Shown here one piece after another: positions 10,075-22,603 of a stretch of DNA of 22,837 bases. Made by a program: the position numbers and the translations under genes. Origin of the DNA: a virus; IMG/VR virus record IMGVR_UViG_3300045738_000847, positions 1 to 22,837 of that record; one strand, 5' to 3'. The number at the start of each line of letters is the position of its first letter. Positions within the stretch are counted from its first letter, which is position 1. The notes under the pieces were generated by a model. That model searched no databases, was not told the DNA's origin, and saw only the letters and a list, made by a program, of their open reading frames with translations.

Positions 10075-10100
10075 ACGCTTTGCGCTTTTGTTCATGCAAT
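10072..10100 (+). promoter_or_regulatory. Sigma70-like promoter candidate
   Basis: TTGACG (10072-10077) and TGCAAT (10095-10100) are separated by exactly 17 bases and follow the terminator-like hairpin. The -35 matches 5 of 6 and the -10 only 4 of 6. It overlaps the start of the ORF at 10080, which would then need a later start codon. Confidence 0.25.
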
Positions 10101-10310
10101 ACTGTTGCAGTGGATGATCAGAAGCCGTATGACGTAGATGTTCATGAGATGCATGAATATGTTGTCGGCATGTTTCGGGCATTCATCGAGAGTAAAAAAT
10201 TTCGAGAGATACTCAATGATCACTTTGTGGTACGTCATTGGGTTGTAGATGATAAACTTATTCGGATTGAGGTTATAGAGAAAGATTTACAACCTAAATA
10301 TCTAAATTAG
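10080..10310 (+). CDS. Hypothetical protein, start uncertain
   Basis: Up to 76 residues. The C-terminal two-thirds look like a real alpha/beta protein: VHEMHEYVVGMFRAFIESKKFREIL as a helix, then HFVVRHWVVDDKLIRIEVIEKDL as strands. The start is unclear. TTG 10080, GTG 10110 and ATG 10149 are all in frame and none has a good Shine-Dalgarno. Its stop is followed 3 bases later by the next ATG, so it probably belongs to the following operon. The family is not recognised. Confidence 0.5.
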   Translation: MRFCSCNTVAVDDQKPYDVDVHEMHEYVVGMFRAFIESKKFREILNDHFVVRHWVVDDKLIRIEVIEKDLQPKYLN

Positions 10311-10313
10311 ATT

Positions 10314-10925
10314 ATGAAATTACATCCTGTCACCGCTTCCTCTTCTTCTATAGATCTGATTGAGCTTTCAGATTCCATTGGCCGTTCTTCGTCTGTTCGC
10401 TCTCGTGCAGGCAAGCGTGCGAAAGCTAAAGGGTCCTCTTTTGAACGTCGCATAGCGAAGTCTTTAGGGGACTGGTGGGGGACTAAATTCTATAGGACGC
10501 CTCAAAGTGGAGGCTCGTACCTCAAAGAGGGCTATGAACTGGCTGGAGATGTAGCGACCCCGGCAGAAGATTTTAGGTTTCATGTAGAGTGTAAGAACCA
10601 GCAATGCTTAGGGAAATTCCACAATTTCTTAGTGTCTGAGAAGGCGGCTGTGTGGAAGTGGTGGGAACAATGTCAATCTGATTGTCCTAAAGATAGAGTT
10701 CCTCTACTGATTTTCACCAAGAATCATATGCCTGCATGGGTGCTTATGCAGGCAGAGTTATTTGATATTTTAGTAGATAAGAGTTTGTCTTCTAATGGAG
10801 ATACTGGCCTTGAATATCAAGCTTATATTTCTGTGGGGGATGTAATCGTAGTTACATTGGAAAGGTTTCTCGCAATACCGAAGCTCGTGATGATAGAAAC
10901 TTTAAAGGAATACGGATATGTCTAA
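10314..10925 (+). CDS. PD-(D/E)XK nuclease, possibly Holliday-junction resolvase-like
   Basis: 203 residues. After a Ser-rich head and a basic segment (RAGKRAKAKGSSFERRIAK) the nuclease core appears: helix Glu E44, a strand and loop with RTPQSGGSY, D79 in AGDV, then E92-x-K94 in HVECKNQQ. This is the E...D...ExK order of PD-(D/E)XK enzymes, and the early GSSFERRIA plus a -GD-- strand resembles phage resolvase/VRR-type members. It would cut branched or recombining DNA, fitting the RecA/SbcCD genes upstream. No strong RBS is visible; the ATG lies 3 bases after the previous stop, so translational coupling is likely. The C-terminus (about 115-203) is unassigned. Exact substrate cannot be told. 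Confidence 0.7.
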   Translation: MKLHPVTASSSSIDLIELSDSIGRSSSVRSRAGKRAKAKGSSFERRIAKSLGDWWGTKFYRTPQSGGSYLKEGYELAGDVATPAEDFRFHVECKNQQCLGKFHNFLVSEKAAVWKWWEQCQSDCPKDRVPLLIFTKNHMPAWVLMQAELFDILVDKSLSSNGDTGLEYQAYISVGDVIVVTLERFLAIPKLVMIETLKEYGYV

Positions 10926-11022
10926 AGATAATAAGACAGCAGAAGTGTCAGTTCCTCGCTGCACCCATTGCGGCAACTTACTCTTACGTTGTAATTGTAC
11001 TGATAATAAAGTGAAGAAGTAG
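10918..11022 (+). CDS. 34-residue zinc-ribbon-like micropeptide
   Basis: The frame reads MSKDNKTAEVSVP, then CTHCGNLLLRCNC, then a Lys-rich end and TAG. The C-x2-C-x6-C-x-C arrangement could bind one zinc. AAGGA lies about 9 bases before ATG, the start overlaps the preceding nuclease gene by 8 bases, and the next gene begins 9 bases after the stop. The fit to the gap, RBS and cysteine pattern argue for a real gene. Function is unknown. Confidence 0.6.
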   Translation: MSKDNKTAEVSVPRCTHCGNLLLRCNCTDNKVKK

Positions 11023-11031
11023 GACCGTATC

Positions 11032-11595
11032 ATGGAAGATAAAACGTACTTCATGGCAGTAGATGTTCAGAATCTTTGGTATTCATGTAGAAATACTTAC
11101 GGCAAAGAATATCGAGTAGACTATGCTGCTCTTCTTAAATTTGTTCAAAAGCAAGTACTGGAGTCTGGCTCCACTTTAAATGTGACGGCCTACCTCATTG
11201 TTTCCAGTCATCATGATCAAACAAACTTTATCAATGCATTGCGCTCATTGGGGTTCAACATCAAAAAGCGTCATATTACGTTTGGAAAGAGCCGACAGAG
11301 TCCTCAAAACACCAATTGGGATGTGGGAATTGCCGCCGACGCCTTCATGCAAGATGATGAATACGATTCATTTATCCTCATAAGTGGGGATGGAGATTTT
11401 GTTTATCTTGCAGAACCTCTTCGAGAGCTTGAGAAGGAAGTAGTAGTGTGCTCATTTGAAGAGAGTACCAGTAAGACTTTGGCGACAGCCGCCACGAGAA
11501 CCTATTACTTTGATGACAGTGTGGTTTACAATCCTCGCGGACGGTGGGAAGAGTCTCAGGGCGCAGACTATGGGGCACCCGATTTTTCGGTCTAA
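11032..11595 (+). CDS. NYN-domain (PIN-like) protein, putative RNase
   Basis: 187 residues with the NYN/LabA-type (formerly DUF88) layout: AVDVQNLWYS with D11 and N14 at the N-terminus, NWDVGIAADAF with D97 and D103, and ISGDGDFVYL with D120 and D122, followed by the typical strand around EVVVCSFEESTSKTLA. These acidic residues form the metal site of PIN-like nucleases. Proteins of this class cut RNA or act in RNA turnover; in a phage it might act on host or phage transcripts, which is inference. The weak RBS TAGGA overlaps the stop of the zinc micropeptide. The last 25 residues or so look disordered. Confidence 0.8.
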   Translation: MEDKTYFMAVDVQNLWYSCRNTYGKEYRVDYAALLKFVQKQVLESGSTLNVTAYLIVSSHHDQTNFINALRSLGFNIKKRHITFGKSRQSPQNTNWDVGIAADAFMQDDEYDSFILISGDGDFVYLAEPLRELEKEVVVCSFEESTSKTLATAATRTYYFDDSVVYNPRGRWEESQGADYGAPDFSV

Positions 11596-11630
11596 TTTTA
11601 CTTAAATGATAGAGGGGATGTTAGGGGGAG

Positions 11631-11957
11631 ATGAGTGACAGTTTTCTTAGTCAACTTGTAGACTTTGGTGCCTTAGGCTTATTCGCCGCCTACCTTGCTA
11701 TCCAACATTTTAGAACTGAAAAGCGTTTAGATCGGCTGATTACTGATTTTCAGCAAGAACTTAAATCTATTAGCGATGCCTTTGACGCAAGGGCCAATAC
11801 TATTCGAGATCGTTACGAGCAGGTTATCTCAAATTTACGTGTAGAGTACCGCAGTGAGCGCGATAAAATAGCTGATCAAAGAGACGCTTTACATAAAGAA
11901 CTTTTAGATCGAGAGCGTCAATCCGTTATGAATTGGAAGCTACGAGATGATAAATAA
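11631..11957 (+). CDS. Membrane-anchored coiled-coil protein, possibly BhlA/UviB holin-like
   Basis: 108 residues: a single N-terminal hydrophobic segment (about 9-25, VDFGALGLFAAYLAIQHF), a basic cluster, then one long charged helix to the end (about 28-105) with heptad-like spacing. BhlA/UviB-type phage holins have this form, though usually with a shorter helix. A spanin-like role is less likely because there is no lipobox and no proline-rich part. The gene lies just before the terminase and not next to the endolysin. AGGGGG is only 3 bases before the ATG, closer than ideal. Confidence 0.45.
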   Translation: MSDSFLSQLVDFGALGLFAAYLAIQHFRTEKRLDRLITDFQQELKSISDAFDARANTIRDRYEQVISNLRVEYRSERDKIADQRDALHKELLDRERQSVMNWKLRDDK

Positions 11958-12017
11958 CGGTAATGTGAATGCTTTCCCTTTGGCATTTATATTTCTTTGG
12001 TATATTCTTTGAAATAT

Positions 12018-13766
12018 ATGGACCCTCAATCACAGAAGAGTGCCTCATTCGGCGGACTTTCCCATGTTGAATTGGAAGCCTTACGCTTAGAAAATCTTGG
12101 TGTGTGGTGTGCCCTTAATACATTCAAAGTAGATCACCGTTCATTTACGTTTGCTAAGCGTAAGTATCTCAAAAAGATATACCTTAGTACGAACCCACTT
12201 ATTAGCGTGAGAAAGTGTACCCAGGTGGGGCTTACCATTTGGATGGTCCTAAAGGTTTTACATAAGCTACGGTATGCAGAACTTATCGGGGCAAAAATAG
12301 CTAAGAAGGCAGGCTTTTATTTCCCGGTCCACGATGCTGTCTCTAAGTTTTCCAAAGATAGATTGGCCCCTTTAGTCGCCAATATTCCAGAGTTTTCTGA
12401 AGTAATGGATAACCAAGGGAGTATTGAACTGAAGCAGCTTGGTAATTCTTCTTTGTATATGTCGTACATGGGAGGTACAGCCACCAAGGATTCTACTCCT
12501 TTGGACATCATCTGCCTCGATGAGACTCGTTTGATGGATGTAGCTGATATTAATCAGGTTGAAGAGCGACTCTCAGGCTCTCTTACTCCCGAAATTTATA
12601 AGATTTCAACTGCTGGTTTACCCAACGATGCTATTGACAAGGCATTTCTCCAGGGAAATCAGCAGTTTTGGCACACTGTGTGTAACTGTAGCGACGGAGT
12701 TATCCTTTCTGATGTATTTCCAGATTGTATTGGGCAGCGTCGTAAAAAAGGTGGGGTGGTTGAGTACTTCTACCGATGTCCGGTGTGCGGGAAAGAAGAT
12801 TTAGAGCCCCAGGATGGGGATTATAGAGCGCATAATCCCTCTTCTCACATCGACAGCTTTCATATTCATCATATGCTTTCGCCTACCAAGACCCCTAAAA
12901 TTGTGTGGGAACGCTATATCACCACCGACAACATCAAAGAGTTTTATAACGCTGTATTAGGGAAACCTTATATCGATGAAGAGAATATTGGCCTAACAGA
13001 TGATGAGTTGGTGGCCTGTGTGAATACTGACCTCACGTGGGGGATGGACAAACAAAATACTTGTATGGGTGTGGACCAACGCTCAGGTCAATTGCATGTG
13101 GTTATCTTGAAGCCGTCGAGCGGGAAGAAACAAATTGTCCATGTTGAGGTAGTCGATAACTACTGTGAACGATACAAAGAGGGCGGTAAAATTGTTTCAC
13201 CTTTCAAACGTCTCTATCAGTTGATGCATGAGTATGATGTAGACATGTGCGTATTGGACGCGCTTCCCAATGCAAATGAGGCGAAAGAGTTCGCTGCTGA
13301 GTTCCCTGGACGTATATTTTTGTCTTACTATAAAGGGAGCCAAGATATGGCTCGTTGGTCTGATAAAAATCCGAAGACAAAGAATTCTGATCCTCCTCCT
13401 CTTCGTAAAAGTAAAGACTCTCTCAAGTTCAAATGGGTGGTGCTCTTAGACCGGTATAAATCAATTGAATATGCTTTGAGGCATTGGCGGGATAGAAGTG
13501 TGGAGTGTCCTCCTCCCCGAGGGTTAGTTCAAGAGGTACGAGATGAAAAGACTGGGACTTATCAACCTGAATTTGTCTGTGAAAATATACTCTTCACGCA
13601 CATGAAGAGCGTGGTACGTGAATTGGTTCAATCAAAATTGGAGCCAGGAAGGTATCGGTATCGATGGAATAACTTGGGGCTTGATCCCCACTTTTTACAT
13701 GCATTTACGTACGCTGTGATTGCCTCTGAGCGAAAGAAGCGAGCTTTCAATTTCGCATTTATCTAG
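12018..13766 (+). CDS. terL: Terminase large subunit (GpA-like ATPase/nuclease)
   Basis: 582 residues from ATG 12018; TTG starts upstream are in frame but none has an RBS. The ATPase part has the divergent Walker A RKCTQVGLT (65-73), matching the K-x2-Q-x-G-x-T form of GpA-type terminases, and Walker B DIICLDE (163-169) with catalytic Glu. A zinc ribbon follows: CNC at 222-224 and CPVC at 254-257. The nuclease part begins near MGVDQRSGQLHVVIL and has later Asp residues in DVDMCVLDALP; the C-terminus ends in HFLHAFTYAVIASE. It powers DNA packaging into the prohead and cuts the concatemer. The intergenic 60 bases before it contain an AATGC/GCATT hairpin. The next gene encodes an HTH protein that may be the small subunit. 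Confidence 0.88.
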   Translation: MDPQSQKSASFGGLSHVELEALRLENLGVWCALNTFKVDHRSFTFAKRKYLKKIYLSTNPLISVRKCTQVGLTIWMVLKVLHKLRYAELIGAKIAKKAGFYFPVHDAVSKFSKDRLAPLVANIPEFSEVMDNQGSIELKQLGNSSLYMSYMGGTATKDSTPLDIICLDETRLMDVADINQVEERLSGSLTPEIYKISTAGLPNDAIDKAFLQGNQQFWHTVCNCSDGVILSDVFPDCIGQRRKKGGVVEYFYRCPVCGKEDLEPQDGDYRAHNPSSHIDSFHIHHMLSPTKTPKIVWERYITTDNIKEFYNAVLGKPYIDEENIGLTDDELVACVNTDLTWGMDKQNTCMGVDQRSGQLHVVILKPSSGKKQIVHVEVVDNYCERYKEGGKIVSPFKRLYQLMHEYDVDMCVLDALPNANEAKEFAAEFPGRIFLSYYKGSQDMARWSDKNPKTKNSDPPPLRKSKDSLKFKWVVLLDRYKSIEYALRHWRDRSVECPPPRGLVQEVRDEKTGTYQPEFVCENILFTHMKSVVRELVQSKLEPGRYRYRWNNLGLDPHFLHAFTYAVIASERKKRAFNFAFI

Positions 13767-13771
13767 GAGAA

Positions 13772-14407
13772 ATGATGCCACGTCAGCCTATTACAGATGT
13801 AAATGACATCCCCGAGATTTTTCCCCCGCGTGATAAAGAAAGCAAAGTGAAATGTACGCAGGCTGAGATGGAGATGCGTAGGCTAGAGGTGAGTAGGCGT
13901 AGATTATGTGGCGAGCCGATTCATCAGATTGCGAATGAGTTAGGGTATAGCATTGTAACTATCTCTAAAGATATTGCTGCCATTCACGAGAGTAATATCC
14001 AGCTTATACAAAATTTTGAGCAAGAAGATTTTATATCTGAGTCATTAGAGGTTTATAAAAGGGTAGAGAGAGAAGCTTTTATGCAGCTTTATGAAGTGCC
14101 TGATGGGGATGTTCGTAAGTCAAAATTTCTCAAAGATATTCGAGACACCAGAAAAGCTACTATTGAGCTTTTACAAGACAGTGGGCTTGTTCGTAAAGAG
14201 CCGAAGAAGATCGATGTGGATATCAGTATAGATGTTTTGAATCATTGGACTGCGGCGCAAAAAACGCTAGTCTGTGATGCCATTTTAGACGCCGCCGTGA
14301 TTGGGTCAGTTGAGGAGGACGAGGAGCCCTTTGATCCTTATGCGGATGCGCTTCAAAAATCTCAGGACGTGGAAGGCGCAGCGGAATTTATAGAACAAGA
14401 GGAGTGA
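13772..14407 (+). CDS. HTH protein next to terL, possible small terminase subunit
   Basis: 211 residues. A helix-turn-helix is visible at about residues 40-70 (RRRLCGEPIHQIANELGYS, then VTISKDIAAIHESN), followed by a long helical segment, a linker and a very acidic C-terminus (VEEDEEPFDPYADAL). DNA-binding N-terminus plus oligomerising helices is the small terminase plan, and adjacency to terL supports it, though the order (after terL) is the reverse of the common one. A transcription regulator is the main alternative. AGGAGA precedes ATG 13772; ATG 13775 is also possible. It stops in TGA. Confidence 0.5.
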   Translation: MMPRQPITDVNDIPEIFPPRDKESKVKCTQAEMEMRRLEVSRRRLCGEPIHQIANELGYSIVTISKDIAAIHESNIQLIQNFEQEDFISESLEVYKRVEREAFMQLYEVPDGDVRKSKFLKDIRDTRKATIELLQDSGLVRKEPKKIDVDISIDVLNHWTAAQKTLVCDAILDAAVIGSVEEDEEPFDPYADALQKSQDVEGAAEFIEQEE

Positions 14408-14410
14408 CCC

Positions 14411-14779
14411 TTGGATCCAATTATGTGGGTAATAAAAATTGTGGTGACAGCGATGGCGCTGTTTACAACTGTCCTATGTTCTCTTGATAACCCAGTAGTC
14501 GTAGATCGCCCGTGGTATGGGGCTGAGGCGTCTTGTAATCTTTCCTACGACAACTCCGAGCTATGCTGCACGTGGAAGTATTTGATAGACCGTTACTGTT
14601 GCGAGACCGCAGACGATCCCGTGTGTGATGACGATTGTACGGAAGCAGAGCGGAAAGAAGATGAAAAGAATGCTTTGTGGGGGATTGATTCTTATTGCGT
14701 GAAGTTGGGGCAGTGTAGGTGGATATACAATGGAGGAGGTATAGATATGCCCCCTATGTATGACGATGAAGAAGATTAG
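14411..14779 (+). CDS. Exported cysteine-rich protein
   Basis: 122 residues from TTG 14411, chosen because GAGGAG (14399-14404) lies 6 bases upstream; ATG 14423 is in frame. The N-terminus carries a hydrophobic run (MWVIKIVVTAMALFTTVLC) typical of a signal peptide. The rest has nine further cysteines, including CC pairs in SELCCTWKY and DRYCCETAD, and an acidic end. The even total and exported form suggest disulfide bonds outside the cytoplasm. The Cys after TTVL lacks the small residue expected for a lipobox, so lipidation is doubtful. Location between packaging and accessory genes gives no role; unrecognised. Confidence 0.6.
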   Translation: MDPIMWVIKIVVTAMALFTTVLCSLDNPVVVDRPWYGAEASCNLSYDNSELCCTWKYLIDRYCCETADDPVCDDDCTEAERKEDEKNALWGIDSYCVKLGQCRWIYNGGGIDMPPMYDDEED

Positions 14780-14811
14780 TTTTCTCTAGCTTGATTTTTT
14801 TTGTTTGACGG

Positions 14812-14833
14812 GTAACTACCTAGGTGGTATCGT
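14812..14833 (+). promoter_or_regulatory. Phage motif GTAAC-N7-GTGGTATCGT, copy 1 (putative promoter)
   Basis: GTAAC at 14812-14816 and GTGGTATCGT at 14824-14833 with a 7-base spacer. One base (G for A) departs from the ten-base consensus. It follows a run of eight T's and a TTGACG, and lies 43 bases before the DUF932 gene start. Confidence 0.65.
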
Positions 14834-14876
14834 TGTAGTCACAAAGCAGTTGGTAACTGTTATTAGGAGATTACAA

Positions 14877-15710
14877 ATGAGACTATATAAAGTGATTGAT
14901 ACGCAGGATGTATGTTTCCCTGTTTCCAAGAAGCCCATCTTTTTTGAATCGGACGGTTTAGGGGTTCTTCAAGTGCCGGATCGATTTGCGGTTGTACGTG
15001 AAGACACACAAGAGGCTCTCTCAGTAGTGAGCGACTCTTATACTATTGTTCCTAACAAAGAGGTCATCTCTAAAGCTCGTGAGGCGTTTGAACGTCTTTC
15101 GCTTCCTACAGTGGAGGATTTTCGCACTACTAAAAATGGTGCACGTCTGTACGCGGAGTTTGTTATTCCGAGCATTGAGATCGAGGTCAAAAAGGGTGAT
15201 GTGGTTCAGATGAAGGGAATCTTCCACAATTCTTATGACACCTCCAAGTCGTATACGTTGGCTGTAGGGGGCTATAGGCTCGTGTGTTCCAATGGGATGA
15301 TGATTGGTGAGGAGTTGTTTCGAGTACGACGCAAGCACATTGGCGAGATTAACGTAGCTGAGTTAGTGCATGAGGTGGAGCGTGCGGTTGGGACTTATCA
15401 AGAGGAGGTTCTACCTTATTGGCAGAATCTTGCTCAACTTGAGATTCCCATGGTGCGTCTGGAGGAGCGATTGGAGACGGCTGTAGAGGAGCGCATCTTG
15501 CCTAAAAAGTTTGCTGCACGTGCCTTGGAGAGCGTCACTCAAAGCGACAGTCGAGATCATGCGGACTCTGCGTCTTTATGGGAGGTTTATAACGCCTTCA
15601 CTGCGCTGACTACACATGAGGTTGCTCCGCGTAGTTATGAGCGTTCTCGCCAGTTGGGAGAGATTTCTCTTGGTTTTGTGCGTGATTTATATTGTCAAGA
15701 AATCCAATAA
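14877..15710 (+). CDS. DUF932 family protein
   Basis: 277 residues from ATG 14877, preceded by AGGAGA at 7 bases. The frame is open further upstream, but that part runs through the promoter-like motif. The sequence has the DUF932 features: RFAVVREDTQEALSVVSDSYTIV near residues 35-60, a central strand pair with GDVVQMKGIFHNSYD, then GYRLVCSNGMMIG with the conserved CSNG, and a helical C-terminus around LEERLETAVEER. Such proteins are common in phages and plasmids and their activity is not established. It is the first gene of the accessory region and probably shares its transcript with the DUF2786 gene 11 bases downstream. Confidence 0.82.
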   Translation: MRLYKVIDTQDVCFPVSKKPIFFESDGLGVLQVPDRFAVVREDTQEALSVVSDSYTIVPNKEVISKAREAFERLSLPTVEDFRTTKNGARLYAEFVIPSIEIEVKKGDVVQMKGIFHNSYDTSKSYTLAVGGYRLVCSNGMMIGEELFRVRRKHIGEINVAELVHEVERAVGTYQEEVLPYWQNLAQLEIPMVRLEERLETAVEERILPKKFAARALESVTQSDSRDHADSASLWEVYNAFTALTTHEVAPRSYERSRQLGEISLGFVRDLYCQEIQ

Positions 15711-15721
15711 GGAATTTATAA

Positions 15722-16423
15722 ATGACAAAAGATAGAAATGATATTTTAGACAAAGTGAAGAAATTGTTGGCGTTGGCAAATTCAGAGAATGAGCATGAAG
15801 CATCTCAGGCGGCTTCGATGGCTCAGCGTCTTTTGCGACGTTATGACCTGTGCATTGAGGATGTCTCAGAGATTACGGCGGAAGACACTCAAATTCATGA
15901 AGAGACTGCGGCTGTGTCAGGAAGGATGGCTTCTTGGCGCACCCGGCTTCTTGAGGGGATTTCATCGGCTTTTCAGTGCCGTACCCTCGTGTACACAAGC
16001 TATAGACGTACACGGCTTGTTCTCGTAGGCTCTAAGGGCACTACGACGGCTGCAAAGGAGACCTTTGAGTACTTGTCTGGTGCAATTGATAAGTTGACGA
16101 AGAAAAATGCTTATGGCAGAGGAAATAGATTCACGCATGGGTATCGGCAAGGATTGGTAAGACGAATTAGTGAACGTTTGAGGGCTATGGCAAAACAAAA
16201 CGAGGTAGAGGTGCAAAGAGAAGCGACAGAAGCTGGGACTGCACTTGTGCTTTGTAAGCAGCAAGCCTTGAAAGAGTATATGGGGCAATTCAAAGGTCAA
16301 TATAAAGGTGCCAGTACTCAAACCGATTATTACGGTTATAATGCGGGATTCTCGGACGGAAATAATGTCTCTCTCAATAAACAATTGGGTAATAATGGAA
16401 ATGGGGGAGGCTATCTAACTTGA
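15722..16423 (+). CDS. DUF2786 domain protein
   Basis: 233 residues. The N-terminal 40 residues match DUF2786: ILDKVKKLLALANSENEHEA, then AASMAQRLLRRYDL. A second domain (about 70-170) with SSAFQCRTLVYT and LVLVGSKGTTTAAKETFEYL is the usual partner in this family. The C-terminus is Gly/Asn/Gln-rich and low in complexity (GNNGNGGGYLT). The role is unknown; the family occurs in many phages. AAGGAA precedes the start. It ends in TGA, 9 bases before a small ATCTC-TTAT-GAGAT hairpin that may help terminate transcription. Confidence 0.82.
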   Translation: MTKDRNDILDKVKKLLALANSENEHEASQAASMAQRLLRRYDLCIEDVSEITAEDTQIHEETAAVSGRMASWRTRLLEGISSAFQCRTLVYTSYRRTRLVLVGSKGTTTAAKETFEYLSGAIDKLTKKNAYGRGNRFTHGYRQGLVRRISERLRAMAKQNEVEVQREATEAGTALVLCKQQALKEYMGQFKGQYKGASTQTDYYGYNAGFSDGNNVSLNKQLGNNGNGGGYLT

Positions 16424-16505
16424 TCATCTCTTATGAGATCTTTGGCTTTTCCCCTAGCAGGAAAGGTGATCGGTTTCATAGGAGTGATGCCATCCAAGGT
16501 AAGGC

Positions 16506-16625
16506 ATGAATCCTGGACTGGATGCGGCAGGCTCGCGTTTGCTTATTCCGCTAGGTTGGGATGTCACTATCCGGTTATGTCCCAATCTAGTTTTTCAACC
16601 GGAACAAAAATTGATTGAAAGATAA
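16506..16625 (+). CDS. Possible 39-residue protein
   Basis: The frame reads MNPGLDAAGSRLLIPLGWD, continues with VTIRLCPNLVFQPEQKLIER and TAA, ending 5 bases before the next ATG. AAGG lies 6 bases upstream of the ATG. The alternation of hydrophobic and charged residues looks protein-like. A competing frame starting near ATG 16487 gives a less plausible Ser/Cys-rich product. No family is recognised. Confidence 0.4.
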   Translation: MNPGLDAAGSRLLIPLGWDVTIRLCPNLVFQPEQKLIER

Positions 16626-16630
16626 ATTAT

Positions 16631-16894
16631 ATGGCTATGATGAGAGAGTGTCCTACTTGTGGGCTGGTATTTGGCCAAATTAGAAGGCGATATCGAAAGT
16701 TGCATTTAGATAAGTGTGAGGGTGCCCATCCACTTGAGCGCAAGTATTATCAAACGTATGGGTCATGGCCCAGAAACCCTCATTCTAAACGGATGGAGAA
16801 GGAAATAGCACAGACGATTTCTGTTTCTCCTAAGGAAGATGAATTACCAAGTAATTTTAGACGTGGTATCATTGGGTATGAAAAGAAAGCTTAG
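16631..16894 (+). CDS. Small zinc-finger protein (C2HC)
   Basis: 87 residues beginning MAMMRECPTCGLVFG. The metal ligands fit C7-x2-C10 ... H25-x3-C29, with a basic stretch between (IRRRYRKLHLDKC), a typical nucleic-acid binding finger. The rest is basic with no motif. The RBS is weak. The end of the gene overlaps a copy of the regulatory motif (16851-16872) and the start of a small basic ORF at 16878. Confidence 0.65.
   Translation: MAMMRECPTCGLVFGQIRRRYRKLHLDKCEGAHPLERKYYQTYGSWPRNPHSKRMEKEIAQTISVSPKEDELPSNFRRGIIGYEKKA
16851..16872 (+). promoter_or_regulatory. Phage motif GTAAT-N7-GTGGTATCAT, copy 2 (putative promoter)
   Basis: GTAAT in place of GTAAC; the second half and the 7-base spacing are exact. 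It lies inside the coding end of the zinc-finger gene, 5 bases before the ATG at 16878, and TGGG follows it as in copy 3. Confidence 0.55.
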
Positions 16895-16997
16895 AATAAG
16901 TGGCGCTAAAAGATTCTTAAAGATTAGCCACAGAAAACTATCTGAGTTGATAAAAAATAAGAAGCGAAAGAAATCTAAAGATAAACGTCGCAGTTAG
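16878..16997 (+). CDS. Possible 39-residue, very basic peptide
   Basis: ATG 16878 sits 5 bases after regulatory copy 2 and overlaps the preceding gene by 17 bases. The product MKRKLRISGAKRFLKISHRK, then LSELIKNKKRKKSKDKRRS, has about 19 Lys/Arg residues. It could bind nucleic acid. It lacks an obvious RBS, and Lys/Arg-rich short frames arise easily in A-rich DNA, so it is only a candidate. Confidence 0.35.
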   Translation: MKRKLRISGAKRFLKISHRKLSELIKNKKRKKSKDKRRS

Positions 16998-16999
16998 AA

Positions 17000-17021
17000 G
17001 TAACCCAAAGTGTGGTATCAT
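17000..17021 (+). promoter_or_regulatory. Phage motif GTAAC-N7-GTGGTATCAT, copy 3 (putative promoter)
   Basis: Exact match in both halves. The flanks also form an AACCCA/TGGGTT inverted repeat spanning 14 bases, not shared by all copies. The next start codon with a good RBS (GAGGGAG) is ATG 17053, 31 bases downstream. Confidence 0.7.
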
Positions 17022-17052
17022 TGGGTTAGGATATAAATGAGGGAGAATAGAA

Positions 17053-17472
17053 ATGACACGTATTGAATGCCCAAGTGAAGCTTGGGATCGCTACTGTGAA
17101 GACGAAGAGCGTGCGAACACCCCTACAGATGATGAACTCACAGAACAATTGGATGCTTACGGGCACCTGACATGGGTTGTGGGCTACTCGGATGAGTGGA
17201 CAGAGGACGAGGTCTGCGGCTGCGTTAGCACATGGAAGGGGGGCAAGTTGGTGAGTGGTCCAGAAATTGAAGGGGGTAAATGCGCCAAGTGTGGAAAGAG
17301 GGAAGATCGTGGAGACTGGCTAGCTTGTTTTGATTTCAAGACGTTTGATCACCCCGATGATGGGCTAGTCATTGCCTACCATGTGGTAGTCAACAGCGAT
17401 TCCGGTGGATTCATCGAGACGTGTGATAGTGGGGTAGGGGAGCAAGACTTGAACAGCGGTGCGAAAGTTTAA
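17053..17472 (+). CDS. Hypothetical acidic protein with cysteine pairs
   Basis: 139 residues with a strongly acidic N-terminus. Two cysteine pairs, CGC near residues 56-58 and CAKC near 76-79, are spaced as in a zinc ribbon. The middle has WKGGKLVSGPEIEGG, then a beta-rich stretch (GLVIAYHVVVN). Start ATG follows GAGGGAG, and the leader resembles those of the genes at 22614 and 22826 (GGGAGAATAGA). It is the first gene after regulatory copy 3. By eye, base composition from here to about 20.2 kb is more GC-rich than the rest of the window, which may mark separately acquired genes. Not recognised. Confidence 0.65.
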   Translation: MTRIECPSEAWDRYCEDEERANTPTDDELTEQLDAYGHLTWVVGYSDEWTEDEVCGCVSTWKGGKLVSGPEIEGGKCAKCGKREDRGDWLACFDFKTFDHPDDGLVIAYHVVVNSDSGGFIETCDSGVGEQDLNSGAKV

Positions 17473-17510
17473 CAGTCGTGGGGCACGACCGATTGGAATT
17501 GGAGGCAGTA

Positions 17511-17897
17511 ATGATTGACACGAAAAAGGAGATGATACGGGCAGAGATAGCCGAGGCTGAGGGTCGAGATGTGCCGGTCGGAGTGGTGTTTTCTATGATC
17601 CATGAGATCGACAGGCTGGCCGAGACTGTGGGCGCTCTATCGGTACTGCCCCGAGGCTACGCTGTGAGTAAGACAATCACATTGACCGAAGAAGAAGCCA
17701 CATTGATTGAGGGACTGATCTTCGATGCGAAACGCGCAGCCAGCAAGCTACAGACAATGTATCTGCGTGACGAGGTAGAACCAAGGCTGGAGTTAGACCG
17801 CCTTGTTGAGCAGCGTGACCTGTATCTTAAAGCTCAAAAGATACTGCGTGAGAGGATGGCCGAGGAGGCTACGCCTTGTCTAAATAAGGGTGTTTGA
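17511..17897 (+). CDS. Hypothetical helical protein
   Basis: 128 residues from ATG 17511, where GGAGG lies 5 bases upstream; a GTG 33 bases earlier is in frame but has no RBS. Mostly helix: MIDTKKEMIRAEIAEAEG at the start, then SKTITLTEEEATLIEGLIFD and a coiled C-terminal part (EPRLELDRLVEQRDLYLKAQ). The pattern LTEEEATLIEGL occurs in short phage proteins of unknown role. No membrane segment and a single cysteine. Confidence 0.65.
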   Translation: MIDTKKEMIRAEIAEAEGRDVPVGVVFSMIHEIDRLAETVGALSVLPRGYAVSKTITLTEEEATLIEGLIFDAKRAASKLQTMYLRDEVEPRLELDRLVEQRDLYLKAQKILRERMAEEATPCLNKGV

Positions 17898-17963
17898 CCG
17901 TGGACTCAACCGGGACCATTTAGTCAACAATCGGCGGTAAGTGATTACTTTTTGTGACAGCAG

Positions 17964-17984
17964 TACCCACTTCTAGTGGGGGTA
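17964..17984 (+). other. Stem-loop in intergenic region
   Basis: TACCCAC pairs with GTGGGGGTA around a TTCTA loop (stem CCCAC/GTGGG perfect, extended by a bulged TACCC/GGGTA). No T-run follows, so it is not a classic terminator. It sits in the 124-base gap before the gene at 18022 and could be a processing or attenuating element. Confidence 0.45.
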
Positions 17985-18021
17985 GTTACACAGAATAGCA
18001 ACTCTATAGAGAGGGAGACGT

Positions 18022-18348
18022 ATGATCCACAGTGAGATCCGATGCGACGGCTGCGGAATCAAAGGCGTGGCTGACTTTTACCGATACAATAGATGGCTCG
18101 CCCACATTGGCAGGAATGAGCTTCACGAACAGGGCTGGAAGGTGGGCGAGCCGCACGGCAAGGACTATTGCCCAAAGTGCGTTGCTGAGGACGCTGGCGA
18201 TTGTGGGTGGATGGCGCGCCAAGGGTCCATGACTGAAAAAGAGATTCAACTCTCCGAAAACCGTTTAACAGCAGAGAAGGTTAACAGGAAACATGAGGAA
18301 CAATCAGCAGTTGCGCTCGACGCAAGAGAACGGGTTGAACCCGCATGA
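18022..18348 (+). CDS. Small zinc-ribbon-like protein
   Basis: 108 residues. The N-terminal half has CDGCGIKGVADFYRYN (C-x2-C) and later YCPKCVAEDAGDC (C-x2-C), a four-ligand ribbon separated by about 40 residues. The second half is a charged helix (TEKEIQLSENRLTAEKVNRK). GAGGGAG lies 6 bases before ATG. It overlaps the next gene by 56 bases in another frame. The fold suggests nucleic-acid or protein binding; the family is not known to me. Confidence 0.65.
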   Translation: MIHSEIRCDGCGIKGVADFYRYNRWLAHIGRNELHEQGWKVGEPHGKDYCPKCVAEDAGDCGWMARQGSMTEKEIQLSENRLTAEKVNRKHEEQSAVALDARERVEPA

Positions 18349-18520
18349 ATGGCTAGTTACCCCTGATAAAGCACCTTTTGATTTGCCTGACTATTGGGCA
18401 AGTATTGGAATGGACGATGGAACTGCGTGGTCTGAAAAAGAAGTGAAAGACTCGTGGGATTGTAACGAGCGATGGAACAAGGCACTCAAAGAGGCTCTTG
18501 TTCAAAAAAGTGAGAAGTAA
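18293..18520 (+). CDS. Hypothetical protein
   Basis: 75 residues. ATG 18293 has AGGA 6 bases upstream. The sequence is rich in Trp and acidic residues (PHEWLVTPDKAPFDLPDYWA, then DDGTAWSEKEVKDSWD). The 56-base overlap with the previous gene is long for this phage, so one of the two ends may be shorter in practice. It is followed, 3 bases after its stop, by the tRNA-like element. Confidence 0.55.
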   Translation: MRNNQQLRSTQENGLNPHEWLVTPDKAPFDLPDYWASIGMDDGTAWSEKEVKDSWDCNERWNKALKEALVQKSEK

Positions 18521-18523
18521 TGT

Positions 18524-18704
18524 ACCAGGGTAGCTCAGTGAATTAGAGCGCCGTTAGTAGGAAGCCGAAGATCCACACACCGGAGCAAACAGGGAAGATC
18601 GCCCCTGCCGGAATTAGTGGCGATGGGGTCCAAGGTGGAAACGTTTATGCAGAACGGATCTATGTACGAAGCGGAGGTCGGGGGTTAAAGTCCCTCCCCT
18701 GGTA
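18524..18704 (+). tRNA. tRNA-like RNA with about 107-base insertion in the anticodon loop
   Basis: All four cloverleaf stems pair: acceptor ACCAGGG (18524-18530) with CCCTGGT (18697-18703), 7 of 7; D stem GCTC/GAGC (18533-18536, 18546-18549); anticodon stem CCGTT (18551-18555) with AGCGG (18670-18674), one G-U; AGGTC variable loop (18675-18679); T stem GGGGG/CCCTC (18680-18684, 18692-18696), one G-U, with loop TTAAAGT. Between the anticodon stem strands are 114 bases instead of 7. The insert has its own helices, AGATCC/GGATCT (18569-18574, 18656-18661) and ATCGCC/GGCGAT (18598-18603, 18619-18624). No splice choice gives U33, the usual G19 and C56 are both A, and no CCA is encoded. It may be an interrupted or decayed tRNA gene or a repurposed tRNA mimic; no anticodon is assigned. 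Confidence 0.6.
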
Positions 18705-18770
18705 GCCTAACACAAAGAGGTAGTGAACCTGAGATTTCGAGTCTTTCTGGTCTGTGTAGACAGGAGGACG

Positions 18771-18953
18771 ATGATGAAAAACTCAAAAGTAATACGATGC
18801 AAGTTCTGTGGATATAGCACACGGCTTCATTGGAACGGACGCTTTAGGCAATTTGGACCTAATGATGCGTGGGAATCTTTAGTTGTGCATGTTGAGTTAG
18901 AGCATCCAGATGAATTTGAAGAGATACAAATTCTATTATGCGGTGCCATTTAG
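18771..18953 (+). CDS. Small C2H2-type zinc-finger protein
   Basis: 60 residues from ATG 18771 (or 18774), with GGAGG 5 bases upstream; an in-frame GTG at 18723 has no RBS. CKFCGYSTRLHW gives C-x2-C, and VVHVELEHPDEF gives H-x4-H about 30 residues later, so one long-loop finger is likely. It lies after the tRNA-like element and just before regulatory copy 4. Function unknown, possibly DNA or RNA binding. Confidence 0.65.
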   Translation: MMKNSKVIRCKFCGYSTRLHWNGRFRQFGPNDAWESLVVHVELEHPDEFEEIQILLCGAI

Positions 18954-18958
18954 AGTAG

Positions 18959-18980
18959 GTAACTTTGAACGTGGTATCAT
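18959..18980 (+). promoter_or_regulatory. Phage motif GTAAC-N7-GTGGTATCAT, copy 4 (putative promoter)
   Basis: Exact in both halves, 5 bases after the preceding stop codon and 12 bases before ATG 18993. A GAGG follows directly. Confidence 0.7.
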
Positions 18981-18992
18981 GAGGTATAGAAA

Positions 18993-19466
18993 ATGGAAAG
19001 CGAACCCATTTGTATAGGGGGACCTGCTGAGTGGTTGTGTGAGACTTGTGTAGAGCATAAAGCGAACAGATGTTCCTTTTCGACAGCACCCTCACCCGAC
19101 AAGAAGATTATAAATGGAGGTATAGAAATGAGTGAGAAACATACACCAGGACCGTGGACAGTAGACGCGAATGTCGTCATTGGTCCACCCAATAGTGGTC
19201 ATGAAATTGAATACGATGGTGTAGAGCACGGCGTTGTTGCCGTTCGGGATACGCTTGATCCTGTACGATGGGCGCATGATTCCGCCCTGATAGCAGCGGC
19301 ACCGGACTGTAAGAAAGCATTAGAGGAAATCTGGGACACGATCAAACAGCGTTGTGGCGAGTTTCAGACACCCACCCGTCTTCAATGGGTGGGGGTTGTA
19401 GATGACATCCTGACCCTTTGCGAAGATGCGCTCAACAAAACTGAAGTAGAGGTGTCTGATGAGTGA
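18993..19466 (+). CDS. HTPGPW-type phage protein, with in-frame cysteine-containing N-terminal extension
   Basis: The frame from ATG 18993 gives 157 residues, but a second start at ATG 19128 (MSEKHTPGPWTV) has GGAGG 7 bases upstream, better than the GAGG at 18981. From 19128 the product (112 residues) matches a common phage protein type: HTPGPW at the N-terminus and the WAHDSALIAAAPDCKKALEEI block near the middle, function unknown. The upstream 45 residues (CIGGPAEWLCETCVEHKANRC) have a zinc-like cysteine set and may be a separate small gene that lost its stop, or a true extension. Both could be made. The gene ends GATGAGTGA, overlapping the next start by 8 bases, in the segment duplicated at 20071. 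Confidence 0.7.
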   Translation: MESEPICIGGPAEWLCETCVEHKANRCSFSTAPSPDKKIINGGIEMSEKHTPGPWTVDANVVIGPPNSGHEIEYDGVEHGVVAVRDTLDPVRWAHDSALIAAAPDCKKALEEIWDTIKQRCGEFQTPTRLQWVGVVDDILTLCEDALNKTEVEVSDE

Positions 19467-19620
19467 CAGACAATGGTGTGGGTGTGAGTCGAGTGTTGCG
19501 TTGCTAGAGGCGCTCAAAGGGGTATGTGCTGCCTACAGTGGCGACCGGAGCATGAGCGCAGAGGAGTGTGTGAGTGCGTGGGAGAAAGCCAAGGCACTCA
19601 TTGCTAAATTGGATAGTGTG
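19449..19620 (+). repeat. Direct duplication, copy 1
   Basis: Starts with GAGGTGTCTG and runs through most of the 57-residue gene. Copy 2 is at 20071-20242, offset 622 bases. The encoded proteins share 42 of the first 54 residues. Confidence 0.8.
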
Positions 19621-19632
19621 GAAGGAAAGTAG
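19459..19632 (+). CDS. Small protein, paralog 1 of a tandem pair
   Basis: 57 residues: MSDRQWCGCESSVALLEALK, then GVCAAYSGDRSMSAEECVSA, then WEKAKALIAKL and a short tail to TAG 19630. It is 42/54 identical to the protein at 20081. Conserved Cys-Gly-Cys near the N-terminus and Cys at 23 and 37 hint at metal binding or a redox role; helices predominate. The start overlaps the HTPGPW gene stop and no separate RBS is needed. The differences between the copies are mostly conservative, so both appear to be kept as coding genes. No family recognised. Confidence 0.75.
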   Translation: MSDRQWCGCESSVALLEALKGVCAAYSGDRSMSAEECVSAWEKAKALIAKLDSVEGK

Positions 19633-19634
19633 AG

Positions 19635-20084
19635 ATGAGTAAGCACGCACCAGGCATTGATGGCAAAGTGTTTATTGATGCGGCATGCGCCCGTGCGGAT
19701 GTCATCGTGAACCCGGCAAAAAGAAGTCTGATGGTAGAGGGTGAATCGGAATGCGGTCAGTGCGGCAATAGGCGGTTCTTATATGAACTTATCCCTGCTC
19801 GTCGCGGTATAAGGAAAACGTGGGTCAAATCCAACCGCTCCCTAGTTTATGGCTCGGGAAAACATTTCTTTTTGGATTGCGACGTGTTGTGCCTGTGCTA
19901 CGAATGTTTCCACATTCTCACGCCGTGTAGTGTGTGCAGTTTACTGTATCGGGATTGTGGAGACAAGACTTGGATCAACCCGTACACCGCTTCCACCTTT
20001 TACAAAGATAACTACAGACCAACAGATTGGGGTGATCTTATCTGCCATTCATGCGGTGAACGGCGCTCTGGAGGTGTCCGATGA
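19635..20084 (+). CDS. Cysteine-rich, multi-zinc-type hypothetical protein
   Basis: 149 residues with several C-x2-C pairs: CGQCGNRRF near 38-41, CLCYECF near 87-92, CSVC near 98-101 and CHSCGERR near 139-142. A treble of zinc knuckles or ribbons is likely, as in phage proteins that bind nucleic acid. The start MSKHAPG recalls the MSEKHTPG start of the gene two before it. ATG 19635 follows GAAGGAAAG and the stop of paralog 1. The last 4 bases overlap paralog 2. An overlapping frame at 19849 ends in the same VSDE as the gene at 18993, but that is a by-product of the duplication. Confidence 0.65.
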   Translation: MSKHAPGIDGKVFIDAACARADVIVNPAKRSLMVEGESECGQCGNRRFLYELIPARRGIRKTWVKSNRSLVYGSGKHFFLDCDVLCLCYECFHILTPCSVCSLLYRDCGDKTWINPYTASTFYKDNYRPTDWGDLICHSCGERRSGGVR

Positions 20085-20242
20085 GTGACGGACAATGGTG
20101 TGGATGTGAGTCGAGCGTTACGCTGTTAGAAATGCTCAAGGGGATATGTGGTGCCTACAGTGGCAATCGGAGCATGAGCGCAGAGGAGTGTGTCAGTCCG
20201 TGGGAGAAAGCTAAGGTACTTATTACTAGATTGGAAGAGGTG
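20071..20242 (+). repeat. Direct duplication, copy 2
   Basis: Begins GAGGTGTCCG and matches 19449-19620 over its length, including the start region ATGAGTGAC and the first 54 codons of the small gene. Confidence 0.8.
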
Positions 20243-20263
20243 AAACATGAAAAAGCTGAGTAA
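20081..20263 (+). CDS. Small protein, paralog 2 of a tandem pair
   Basis: 60 residues: MSDGQWCGCESSVTLLEMLK, then GICGAYSGNRSMSAEECVSP, then WEKAKVLITRLEEVKHEKAE. The four cysteines and the SMSAEECVS block are the same as in paralog 1. The C-terminus differs after residue 54. It overlaps the previous gene by 4 bases and the next by 17. Function unknown. Confidence 0.75.
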   Translation: MSDGQWCGCESSVTLLEMLKGICGAYSGNRSMSAEECVSPWEKAKVLITRLEEVKHEKAE

Positions 20264-20561
20264 AGATAAAATAGCGGAACTGTATCAACTGTACGATCAG
20301 TTAGACACTGAACAGAGTGAGATTGAAGCTGCTATGGGCGTCTATAATGAGATTATGCACCAATTGAATGAGAGTCTACAAGAAGTGGCTGAAGAGATTG
20401 AAGCTTACATTGATGACCGCTCAGAGAAGTGGAAGGAGTCGGAAAGAGGGGATGCATATCAAGATTGGTTGTATTTCTTCGAGGAAGAGAAAGACGAGAT
20501 TGACGAACCTTGTTTCGATCATGGTTCAATGGATGATGTTCCTCTAGAGGTAGGGGTGTAG
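20247..20561 (+). CDS. Acidic helical protein of unknown function
   Basis: 104 residues, nearly all helix in the first 70 (KIAELYQLYDQLDTEQSEIE, then AMGVYNEIMHQLNESLQEVA), then DWLYFFEEEKDEIDEP. Strong negative charge, one Cys, no membrane segment. Coiled-coil dimerisation is likely. The start overlaps paralog 2 and is preceded by AAGAGG about 9 bases away. Regulatory copy 5 begins 7 bases after its stop. Confidence 0.6.
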   Translation: MKKLSKDKIAELYQLYDQLDTEQSEIEAAMGVYNEIMHQLNESLQEVAEEIEAYIDDRSEKWKESERGDAYQDWLYFFEEEKDEIDEPCFDHGSMDDVPLEVGV

Positions 20562-20567
20562 AATCAA

Positions 20568-20589
20568 GTAACTTTATATGTGGTAACAT
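20568..20589 (+). promoter_or_regulatory. Phage motif GTAAC-N7-GTGGTAACAT, copy 5 (putative promoter)
   Basis: First half exact, second half with one change (A for T). It ends 12 bases before ATG 20602, and AGGA follows directly. That leaves room only if transcription begins right after the motif. Confidence 0.6.
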
Positions 20590-20601
20590 AGGAAATATAT
20601 T

Positions 20602-20919
20602 ATGCCGCGTTGGAAATCTATAAATAACAAAGATAGCTTTTGCACGTCTTACAAAGGTCGAGAATTTCTCATAGAGAAGACAGGACGTGGAGTGTGGACC
20701 CTCTCGGTGGATGGTATAAAGTTTTGTACGGTGCACGGGAAAGAGGATGCCAACTCCGTCATCAACAAAGAGATATATGAGCACGCTGGGTTTTGCGACA
20801 TTTTAGACGGGAAACGCTGCACATGTACGCATTCCCCCACTGAAGTAGTGACGGAAATACCTCCTAAAAAGAAATTATCTTCTCAAGTTTTTGTAAAGAA
20901 ATTCCGAATTAATAAGTAA
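20602..20919 (+). CDS. Hypothetical protein
   Basis: 105 residues. The beta-rich middle (REFLIEKTGRGVWTLSVDGI, then KFCTVHGKEDANSVI) looks like a small single-domain fold. CDILDGKRCTC follows, and the C-terminus is basic (PKKKLSSQVFVKKFRINK). AGGA lies 9 bases upstream of ATG. It is the first gene after regulatory copy 5. Family not recognised. Confidence 0.6.
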   Translation: MPRWKSINNKDSFCTSYKGREFLIEKTGRGVWTLSVDGIKFCTVHGKEDANSVINKEIYEHAGFCDILDGKRCTCTHSPTEVVTEIPPKKKLSSQVFVKKFRINK

Positions 20920-20945
20920 CATGCAGATACTACTAGGAGGATACG

Positions 20946-21146
20946 TTGGGAATATATGGAATGGGAGTAGAATTAGAGAGGAAAAACTTTGCTAGAGACA
21001 CTTGTAGGAAGGGTTACTTTGTGGTTTACATGCACGAAGGTGAGATCGCAGTCGTTAATATGAGATTTTTTGATTTGGCAGAGGCCAAGTTACATGCGGC
21101 GACTATTTACAATGGCAAGAAGCCACGAGTGACGGAAGTAATCTGA
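20946..21146 (+). CDS. Small hypothetical protein, TTG start
   Basis: 66 residues. AGGAGG (20935-20940) lies 5 bases before TTG 20946 and 20 bases before ATG 20961, so the TTG start is favoured. GYFVVYMHEGEIAVVNMRFF, then LAEAKLHAATIYNG gives a strand-strand-helix pattern. Ends in TGA, 1 base before the next ATG. No family recognised. Confidence 0.6.
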   Translation: MGIYGMGVELERKNFARDTCRKGYFVVYMHEGEIAVVNMRFFDLAEAKLHAATIYNGKKPRVTEVI

Positions 21147-21147
21147 C

Positions 21148-21336
21148 ATGGTTGATAGTTTAGAGAAAATTACATTGGAAATTAACTTAGATAAAGATGT
21201 GTGCCCTTATGTGGGCAAGAGCTATATTACAGATGAGTATTTATCTCCATCGTTCCCTGAAATAAGGGAGACTTGTATAGATAGGAGTGATGAAAATGTT
21301 GAAGATTATAATCTTCCTAGCCATGTTTACCTTTAA
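21148..21336 (+). CDS. Small hypothetical protein
   Basis: 62 acidic residues (LEKITLEINLDKDVCPYVGK, then ITDEYLSPSFPEIRETCIDR). The start lies right after the preceding stop, implying coupling, with no own RBS. The end overlaps the secreted peptide gene by 41 bases in a different frame, so the C-terminus is the less certain part. Confidence 0.45.
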   Translation: MVDSLEKITLEINLDKDVCPYVGKSYITDEYLSPSFPEIRETCIDRSDENVEDYNLPSHVYL

Positions 21337-21475
21337 TGGTGTTCAAGACATTGCAAAGCTTCCAGGGAAAGAAGACGGATGCTTTTATGATGCCCAATGT
21401 CCGTACATTGCGTGTTACATTGTTTGGTGCCACTTAGAGCATGGAAAATGTTATAGGGTTCCTAACTGTGTTTGA
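21296..21475 (+). CDS. Secreted six-cysteine peptide
   Basis: 59 residues from ATG 21296, chosen because AGGAG (21283-21287) lies 8 bases upstream, while GTG 21287 and ATG 21290 are too close. A signal-peptide-like start MLKIIIFLAMFTFNG is followed by a mature part of about 40 residues with six cysteines in the order C-x5-C-x4-C-x4-C-x6-C-x5-C. The even number and export suggest three disulfides. The CP pair after x5 and the GKC near the end recall small eukaryotic cysteine-stabilised peptides. Such resemblance is common by chance in short sequences. It could be a superinfection or envelope-acting peptide. Function unknown. Confidence 0.6.
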   Translation: MLKIIIFLAMFTFNGVQDIAKLPGKEDGCFYDAQCPYIACYIVWCHLEHGKCYRVPNCV

Positions 21476-21617
21476 TGTAAAAACACCAGTTATTTGGTAG
21501 AGTTATAAAAATTTAATGAAAATGAGCCAAGTTATCAGGTGCGCCTATTCAACTTTAATATAGTTATGGATATGGACGCTCTTTAGATGTGTCTAAATAT
21601 AAATAATTGGAGCAGAT

Positions 21618-22271
21618 ATGATTAAGCTATTTTGTAATTATTGGCATTTATCGGCAGCGGAGTTAGGAAGATGCCTCGGTCTTTCGGCACCTCAAGAATA
21701 TATCTCTGGTGAGAAGATTTTACCGGTTCATATTTTTCGAAAGGTTTCTCAGATTTCTTCACTTGCAGAAAAGTTTGAAAATAAAGAGCTTTGTGCTGTT
21801 GATGCTTTACGCGAGCATTTGGGGGGTGGCGAGACGACATTGAGTAACGTGGTAAAAGAGACTCAGGTATCTAGGGATACGATTAAGCGTTGGTTGAGAG
21901 GTGAGGCGAAGCCTGGTCGGAGCAGTCTTGTGAAGGTAGCTGCTTTGATTGTAGAATCAGATCCAATGGATGACTTGCTTTATCAGATAGAGATATTTGT
22001 GGCGACTACACGCGCTTTGGGGATAAGTGCGAGAGCGGCAGCAAAGTTAGTGGGATTATCAGCGCCTACACTGACTGCATGGGCGAGTGGGATGATACGA
22101 CCCGATAAGGAGAATTGCGCTATTCTTCTTCCTTGGCTTAAAAAGTACAACTCTACGTCAGAGGAGTTAGTGTCTTTGTTGAAAACACAAGACCTGCCAG
22201 AGGCTGTGGTTAAAAGAGGGAGACGGTCTGGTGAATGGAAAAAGGGTTCACGTCGGTTGATGGTGAAGTAA
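21618..22271 (+). CDS. DNA-binding regulator with three helix-turn-helix-like segments
   Basis: 217 residues. Three segments look like XRE-type HTH units: about 11-30 (LSAAELGRCLGLSAPQEYIS), 74-95 (TLSNVVKETQVSRDTIKRWL) and 136-158 (ISARAAAKLVGLSAPTLTAW). The C-terminus is basic (KRGRRSGEWKKGSRRLMVK) and suits DNA backbone contacts. TTGGAG precedes ATG. The 142 bases upstream are AT-rich, with no other gene. It lies immediately before regulatory copy 6, so it might read or control the motif family, which is inference. A single-chain multi-HTH protein would contact an extended site. No specific family is known to me. Confidence 0.65.
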   Translation: MIKLFCNYWHLSAAELGRCLGLSAPQEYISGEKILPVHIFRKVSQISSLAEKFENKELCAVDALREHLGGGETTLSNVVKETQVSRDTIKRWLRGEAKPGRSSLVKVAALIVESDPMDDLLYQIEIFVATTRALGISARAAAKLVGLSAPTLTAWASGMIRPDKENCAILLPWLKKYNSTSEELVSLLKTQDLPEAVVKRGRRSGEWKKGSRRLMVK

Positions 22272-22285
22272 GAGCTAATCTATAA

Positions 22286-22307
22286 GTAACCCAAGACGTG
22301 GTATCAT
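22286..22307 (+). promoter_or_regulatory. Phage motif GTAAC-N7-GTGGTATCAT, copy 6 (putative promoter)
   Basis: Exact in both halves. The spacer (CCAAGAC) resembles that of copy 3 (CCAAAGT). A GTTAC 9 bases further on makes an imperfect inverted repeat with GTAAC. The next gene starts at GTG 22337 with AAGGAG at 22325. Confidence 0.7.
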
Positions 22308-22336
22308 GGGGTCAGTTACAAATAAAGGAGACTATC

Positions 22337-22603
22337 GTGGAAGATATTAGAAAGAATCCAAAAGAGTTGGTATCTCTACTCTCACAGTATGTGAACAGTA
22401 TGTGTGTAAACCAGAAAGACTTTGCACAGGAAGTGATGCGTGAGCATCGCACCTTGCAGCAGAGCATGTTTGGTTTGTTTCTACGCACTATTGAAGAGTG
22501 GTCTACTCAAGAGAATTACGATCCGCGTAATGAATACACTGTAGAGACTTCTAAAAAGATTATGGAACTAGTGGGTGGCTCTAGCCAGACGCCATTTATT
22601 TAG
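22337..22603 (+). CDS. Hypothetical helical protein
   Basis: 88 residues from GTG 22337, where AAGGAG (22325-22330) lies 6 bases upstream; the longer in-frame GTG at 22298 falls inside the motif and has no RBS. Mostly helix: KNPKELVSLLSQYVNSMCVN, then QKDFAQEVMREHRTLQQSMF, then LFLRTIEEWS. This looks like a small all-alpha protein, perhaps with an HTH-like core (NQKDFAQEVMREHRTLQQS). It is the first gene after regulatory copy 6. Confidence 0.65.
   Translation: MEDIRKNPKELVSLLSQYVNSMCVNQKDFAQEVMREHRTLQQSMFGLFLRTIEEWSTQENYDPRNEYTVETSKKIMELVGGSSQTPFI

Follow-up and report, generated by a model that had tools for sequence, protein, structure and literature searches.

In the middle promoters of phage T4, the MotA box lies 12 +/- 1 bp from the -10 element (PMC2988021). 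Cluster K mycobacteriophages carry start-associated sequences (SAS and ESAS), whose function is described as unclear (PMC3203893). The L5-type repressor acts as a monomer, and its two domains read an asymmetric site (PMC9283540). We analyzed a bipartite motif, GTAAC-N7-GTGGTATCAT, that is present six times in a 22.8-kb fragment of an incomplete phage genome. (This fragment, which is an entire IMG/VR record, is referred to as the window.) The motif set is most likely a group of coordinated phage promoters that are read by the host polymerase and have an added phage box. The copies and the genes that we discuss are listed in Table 1.

Table 1. Motif copies and associated genes in the window
Feature	Position	Strand	Description
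Terminase large subunit	11997..13766	+	Query for finding relatives
Copy 1	14805..14833	+	TTGACG (-35), 17-bp spacer containing GTAACTACC, TGG, TATCGT (-10)
DUF932 gene behind copy 1	14877..15710	+	Homologue in relative G002 is 42% identical
Copy 2	16851..16872	+	GTAAT-N7-GTGGTATCAT; TTACCA at 17 bp (4/6)
Copy 3	17000..17021	+	GTAACCC...GTGGTATCAT, then inverted arm TTGGGTTA
Copy 4	18959..18980	+	ATG 18993 is 12 nt downstream
Copy 5	20568..20589	+	TAACAT as -10; ATG 20602 is 12 nt past the motif
Helix-turn-helix protein	21618..22271	+	HTH_3, E = 2.9e-09; just upstream of copy 6
Copy 6	22286..22307	+	Followed by partly inverted arm GGGGTCAGTTAC

The six-copy motif is real and far above chance expectation. 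An earlier note on this DNA had listed the six copies as varying little and as lying all on one strand; its coordinates were correct, each copy is on the + strand, its halves are separated by exactly 7 bases, and it has 0-1 mismatch to GTAAC-N7-GTGGTATCAT. In 100 dinucleotide shuffles of the window, the mean number of matches with 3 or fewer mismatches was 0.52, and six matches were never reached (0/100). We also derived a 29-column weight matrix from the six copies, which fit it by construction (scores of 27.6-41.7). When both strands of the window were scanned, the next best site scored just 3.6, so the first 14.8 kb has no copy, as had been claimed. (The top matrix score in eight Markov-shuffled windows was 11.3.) Conservation extends slightly beyond the motif: A/G precedes GTAAC, Y follows it, and motif positions 24-26 are rich in G. 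AA precedes GTAAC in 4 of the 6 copies, and the G-rich bases 3' of the motif are as previously described. Among all viral contigs, the exact motif has 69 matches, each of them single, and these are scattered as expected by chance.

The copies are also placed as promoters might be. Non-coding DNA accounts for 8.5% of positions 14411-22603 (by our own gene calls), and 5 of the 6 copies lie wholly within gaps between genes (P about 2.5e-5). The exception is copy 2, which is within the 3' end of the ORF at 16631-16894. All six copies are on the same strand as the genes, and all are close to gene starts, which agrees with the pattern that the earlier note had seen.

The window has other repeated or unusual features. 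The C-terminal part of a DNA polymerase A (60-1691) is split by a LAGLIDADG-containing intein, and the extended N-terminal part of a RecA-like gene contains a 36-base tandem repeat (3291-3362). A 165-base direct repeat (19449-19613 and 20071-20235, 87% identical) involves two related small ORFs. Positions 18524-18707 have a tRNA-like outline: ACCAGGG (18524-18530) pairs with CCCTGGT (18697-18703), and there are D-arm-like and T-arm-like stretches with about 110 extra bases between. For this region, ARAGORN called no tRNA, and Rfam gave just a sub-threshold match to YrlA (18655-18757, E = 0.038).

The second half of the motif resembles a bacterial promoter. GTGGTATCAT contains TG-n-TATCAT, which is the form of an extended -10 element (-15 to -7). 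In all six copies, TG stands one base before a hexamer that resembles TATAAT and matches it at 4-5 of 6 positions. TGnTAnnnT is expected in 0.26% of random decamers with the window's composition. At 17 bp upstream of the hexamers, copies 1 to 6 match TTGACA at 5, 4, 3, 1, 2, and 3 of 6 positions, respectively. Taken together, the -35 similarity of the six copies at exactly 17 bp is above chance (p = 0.0014), and without copy 1 it is weakly so (p = 0.032). Only copy 1 has a near-perfect -35 element (TTGACG) at exactly 17 bp, and copies 4 and 5 are poor. In a generic promoter scan, which overall was not above shuffles, copies 1 and 2 were promoter-like, with TG. Given the -35 similarity at 17 bp and the extended -10, GTAAC (-28 to -24) would be a second box inside the spacer, just downstream of the -35 position, rather than the -35 itself.

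Finding relatives of this phage required the terminase. Megablast of the window against phage records found nothing, and the nearest terminases among phage records are about 31% identical. Aligning the terminase with IMG/VR identified 12 contigs at 65-72% identity, which we designated G001-G012. TerL and RecA are present in 12/12 of these relatives, and TerS is present in 11/12; the contig of G010 ends inside TerL. The DUF932 and helix-turn-helix proteins, used as queries, found no relatives. The terminase had no match in genome_contigs, so there is no prophage or host link from that collection. The exact motif GTAAC-N7-GTGGTATCAT was not found in the relatives.

What the relatives do have is promoters. 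Mostly downstream of terL, their small genes are preceded by TTGACA-17/18-TATAAT promoters, which are followed by short leaders and strong ribosome sites. For copy 1, a comparison is possible with G002 (IMGVR_UViG_3300021356_000044), in which DUF932 and DUF2786 genes follow just as they do in the window. The DUF932 gene is preceded by TTGACG-17-TATCGT-TGTAGTC in the window and by TTGACA-17-TACCAC-TGTAGTC in G002, so copy 1 is the predicted promoter of the DUF932 gene, with its counterpart at the same place in G002. More broadly, G002 contains 30 sites of the form TTGAC-N13..17-TGGTA on one strand and 0 on the other; as a control, the pattern read backwards gave 1 and 0 sites. The main form of the site is TAATCTTGACGGTACTCCCTAGGGTGGTATACCTAGGGAGTAACCAACGGAGG. 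TGGTA is usually 26-46 bases before the start codon, and most sites directly precede a ribosome site and a start. We also noticed that G002 has, before small genes, about 28 promoter and ribosome-site cassettes that closely resemble one another (L076-L078; mostly contig 49-15377, - strand); inverted arms of 9-11 bp surround the -10 in most of them. When we searched viral contigs for the promoter form of G002, only G002 had multiple copies; five others had one match each, as might occur by chance.

Overall, we think it likely that the motif is a phage promoter class that is recognized by the host RNA polymerase and its main sigma factor. The -10, TG, and -35 signature, the placement of the copies, and the promoters of the relatives lend good support to the earlier note's proposal of a phage-specific promoter class. 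They lend equally good support to the first of its two readings, a TG-extended -10 with a regulator box, to which the -35 similarity at 17 bp also points. The simplest assumption is that the host polymerase reads the motif. Specifically, a sigma-70-type host polymerase would recognize the TG-n-TATCAT extended -10 and would initiate about 7 bases past TATCAT. The copies other than copy 1 would rely on the extended -10 and on a putative phage-encoded DNA-binding regulator at GTAAC. (We infer everything about this regulator: its existence, its identity, and its sign, as activator or repressor.) The copies could then coordinate the activation of separate sets of small genes that lie downstream of the terminase.

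With a sigma-70 start 7 bases past the hexamer, the predicted leaders of copies 1 to 6 are 37, ~0, 25, 6, 6, and 23 bases (using the nearest ATG for copy 4). Ribosome sites are normal at copies 1, 3, and 6: for example, the leader of copy 3 (about 25 nt) has GGGAG before ATG 17053, and the leader of copy 6 (about 23 nt) has AAAGGAG before GTG 22337. Copy 2 is 5 nt before ATG 16878, and a leaderless start is expected for its gene. The earlier note had most copies just upstream of start codons, which is correct, except that at copy 4 the ATG 12 bases on is probably not the main start. Because the match of the copy 4 protein to the phrog_1273 family begins at residue 46, which corresponds to an in-frame ATG at 19128, the main start is probably this ATG; it is preceded by GGAGG, and the leader would then be about 140 bases. 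At copy 5, the SD-like AGGA is upstream of the predicted sigma-70 start, and the leader would be about 6 bases. The main difficulty with sigma-70 as the reader is that transcripts from copies 2 and 5 would have little or no leader. The earlier note took copy 5 to favor initiation right after the motif, and this copy stays a small anomaly for a sigma-70 start.

The spacers of the relatives' promoters may explain the GTAAC box. These spacers often hold sequences that resemble the palindrome AGTANTACT, such as AGTAATAC, GTAGTACC, GAATACC, and GACTACC. AGTANTACT was first spotted by eye, and we then used the same data to rank the 256 possible nine-base palindromes of this shape. AGTANTACT ranked first of the 256: matches at 6 or more of 8 positions are present in 29% of 38 dereplicated promoters, versus 4% of 852 other TTGAC sites. 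Where the relatives' spacers carry this palindrome, the window carries AAGTAAC, and five of its copies match just one half of the palindrome. One promoter of G012 has TTGACAAGTAATCC; at the corresponding place, copies 3 and 6 have AAGTAACCC. GTAAC would then be this phage's version of a regulator site that is common to the family, or one half of such a site.

A different reading is that the motif is an asymmetric, stoperator-like repressor site, at which a monomeric regulator with several helix-turn-helix units, perhaps the protein encoded next to copy 6, reads both GTAAC and GTGGTATCAT and blocks initiation or elongation at numerous places. Like the sites of the L5-type repressor (PMC9283540), the copies are asymmetric and bipartite, have a single orientation, and lie in short gaps. 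Also, a model of the protein beside copy 6 (from a single sequence, at low confidence, with a mean pLDDT of 68) is all-helical, with three HTH-like units 60-65 residues apart. We found no convincing homologue of this protein among the 12 relatives, so it is a candidate for a local regulator at most. The lack of a clear homologue in relatives that do carry promoters argues against the repressor site, as do the nearness of every copy to a gene start, the TG and -10 bases that are kept at promoter spacing in each copy, and the -35 similarity at exactly 17 bp. Given the precedent of the L5-type monomer, we consider this reading improbable rather than negligible, and a promoter and an operator may coincide, so it is compatible with the copies being promoters.

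We also considered the inverted repeats around the -10. In G002, many copies have perfect 9-11 bp arms there. The left and right parts of eight G002 copies pair better within a copy than when copies are mixed (p = 0.0004), and the same is true of twelve divergent G002 sites (p = 0.0015). The arms change in step (from CCTAGG/CCTAGG to CCCAGG/CCTGGG), and where individual copies diverge, their arms differ in sequence but still match. This pairing is what one would expect of either a hairpin or a dimeric operator. Beyond G002 and the window, the evidence for pairing within copies is weak (p = 0.03). Separately, a site in G012 (L098 7479), TTGACAGGTTAGTAATACTATGGTATTACTATTAG, has perfect 9-bp arms (TAGTAATAC/GTATTACTA) around the -10, and this promoter is apparently just before a tRNA gene. 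Perhaps each genome in the family amplifies its own promoter cassette before small genes, with an inverted repeat that has the -10 at its centre and whose arms vary among phages and among copies yet stay self-complementary; the shape of the DNA, or a fast-coevolving dimeric regulator, would control opening, and the window's motif would be a form whose -35 has largely decayed. We regard this scenario as rather unlikely.

It is very unlikely that the conserved element is a hairpin, in read-through RNA or in extruded DNA, with TGGTA in its loop and not a promoter as such. Besides the pairing in G002, arms are visible in copies 1 and 3 of the window. However, pairing in the window is not above that of mixed copies (p = 0.08 for the stem and 0.28 for the energy), no window copy is strongly above shuffles, a transcript that starts after the -10 would exclude the left arm, and a dimeric repressor likewise requires palindromes around the promoter. 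An RNA hairpin in the window was rejected because of weak folding z-scores and non-significant pairing of the arms. TGGTA alone is not enriched in the loops of inverted repeats, and an Rfam search found nothing at the gathering score. We also dropped the idea that the arms belong to a repeat element or an integron site: the copies have no common flanks outside the motif, and their arms vary.

The earlier note had preferred a compact promoter for a single-subunit, T7-like RNA polymerase that initiates at the G-rich bases immediately following the motif, and it suggested looking for the gene for such a polymerase or for a MotA-like activator. Neither was found, although none of the searched contigs is rated complete, so these absences are not proof: PF00940 matched nothing in the window (as the note had said of the polymerase gene) and nothing in eight relatives, among them contigs of 128 and 101 kb, with a positive T7 control; searches of the window and four relatives for MotA and AsiA were negative, with a positive T4 control; and there was no match to RNA polymerase beta in four relatives or to Sigma70_r2 in eight relatives and the window. 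G is present at most of positions 24-26, and immediate initiation would give copy 5 a usable ribosome site, but with no polymerase found, a variable 7-base gap and a box at least 20 bases upstream that are unlike that promoter class, and ordinary TTGAC-17-TATAAT/TGGTA promoters in that part of the relatives' genomes too, this preference was not borne out and we give it almost no credence.

These results offer a map of predicted promoters, and a regulatory box open to testing, for a group of uncultivated tailed phages that have no close relative in the collection of phage records that we searched. The natural series from a full -35 and -10 to a -35-less promoter with an upstream box would lend itself to studies of how phages transfer promoters from host control to a regulator of their own. 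The amplification of promoter cassettes could be studied well in the 30-site array of G002. Promoters of this kind have been described before. What appears to be new to the collections and papers that we searched is the sequence class, together with the range from full promoters in the relatives to -35-poor ones in the window. A literature search for repeated or palindromic early phage promoters found nothing.

Compared to known systems, the copies resemble the middle promoters of T4 in that a phage box takes the place of the -35 ahead of a host -10, which often has TGn. Unlike in T4, the box is GTAAC instead of TGCTT, it is 11 bp from the -10 (one step nearer), and no protein of the MotA or AsiA families was found in the 22.8-kb fragment or the four relatives. 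The SAS and ESAS of Cluster K phages are also many near-identical short elements directly before start codons, nearly all in one orientation and some with inverted repeats (PMC3203893), but the window's elements carry a clear -10, and those of the relatives also carry a -35. Like the operators and stoperators of Cluster A phages such as L5, the copies are asymmetric repeats that are oriented with transcription and lie in short intergenic gaps (PMC9283540); in contrast, no L5-type repressor was identified, and the copies are near gene starts and promoter-like. Finally, the copies share TG-n-TATCAT with ordinary sigma-70 extended -10 promoters, as well as the 17 bp to the -35 in copy 1, and they differ from these in having a fixed extra box, GTAAC, at -28 to -24.
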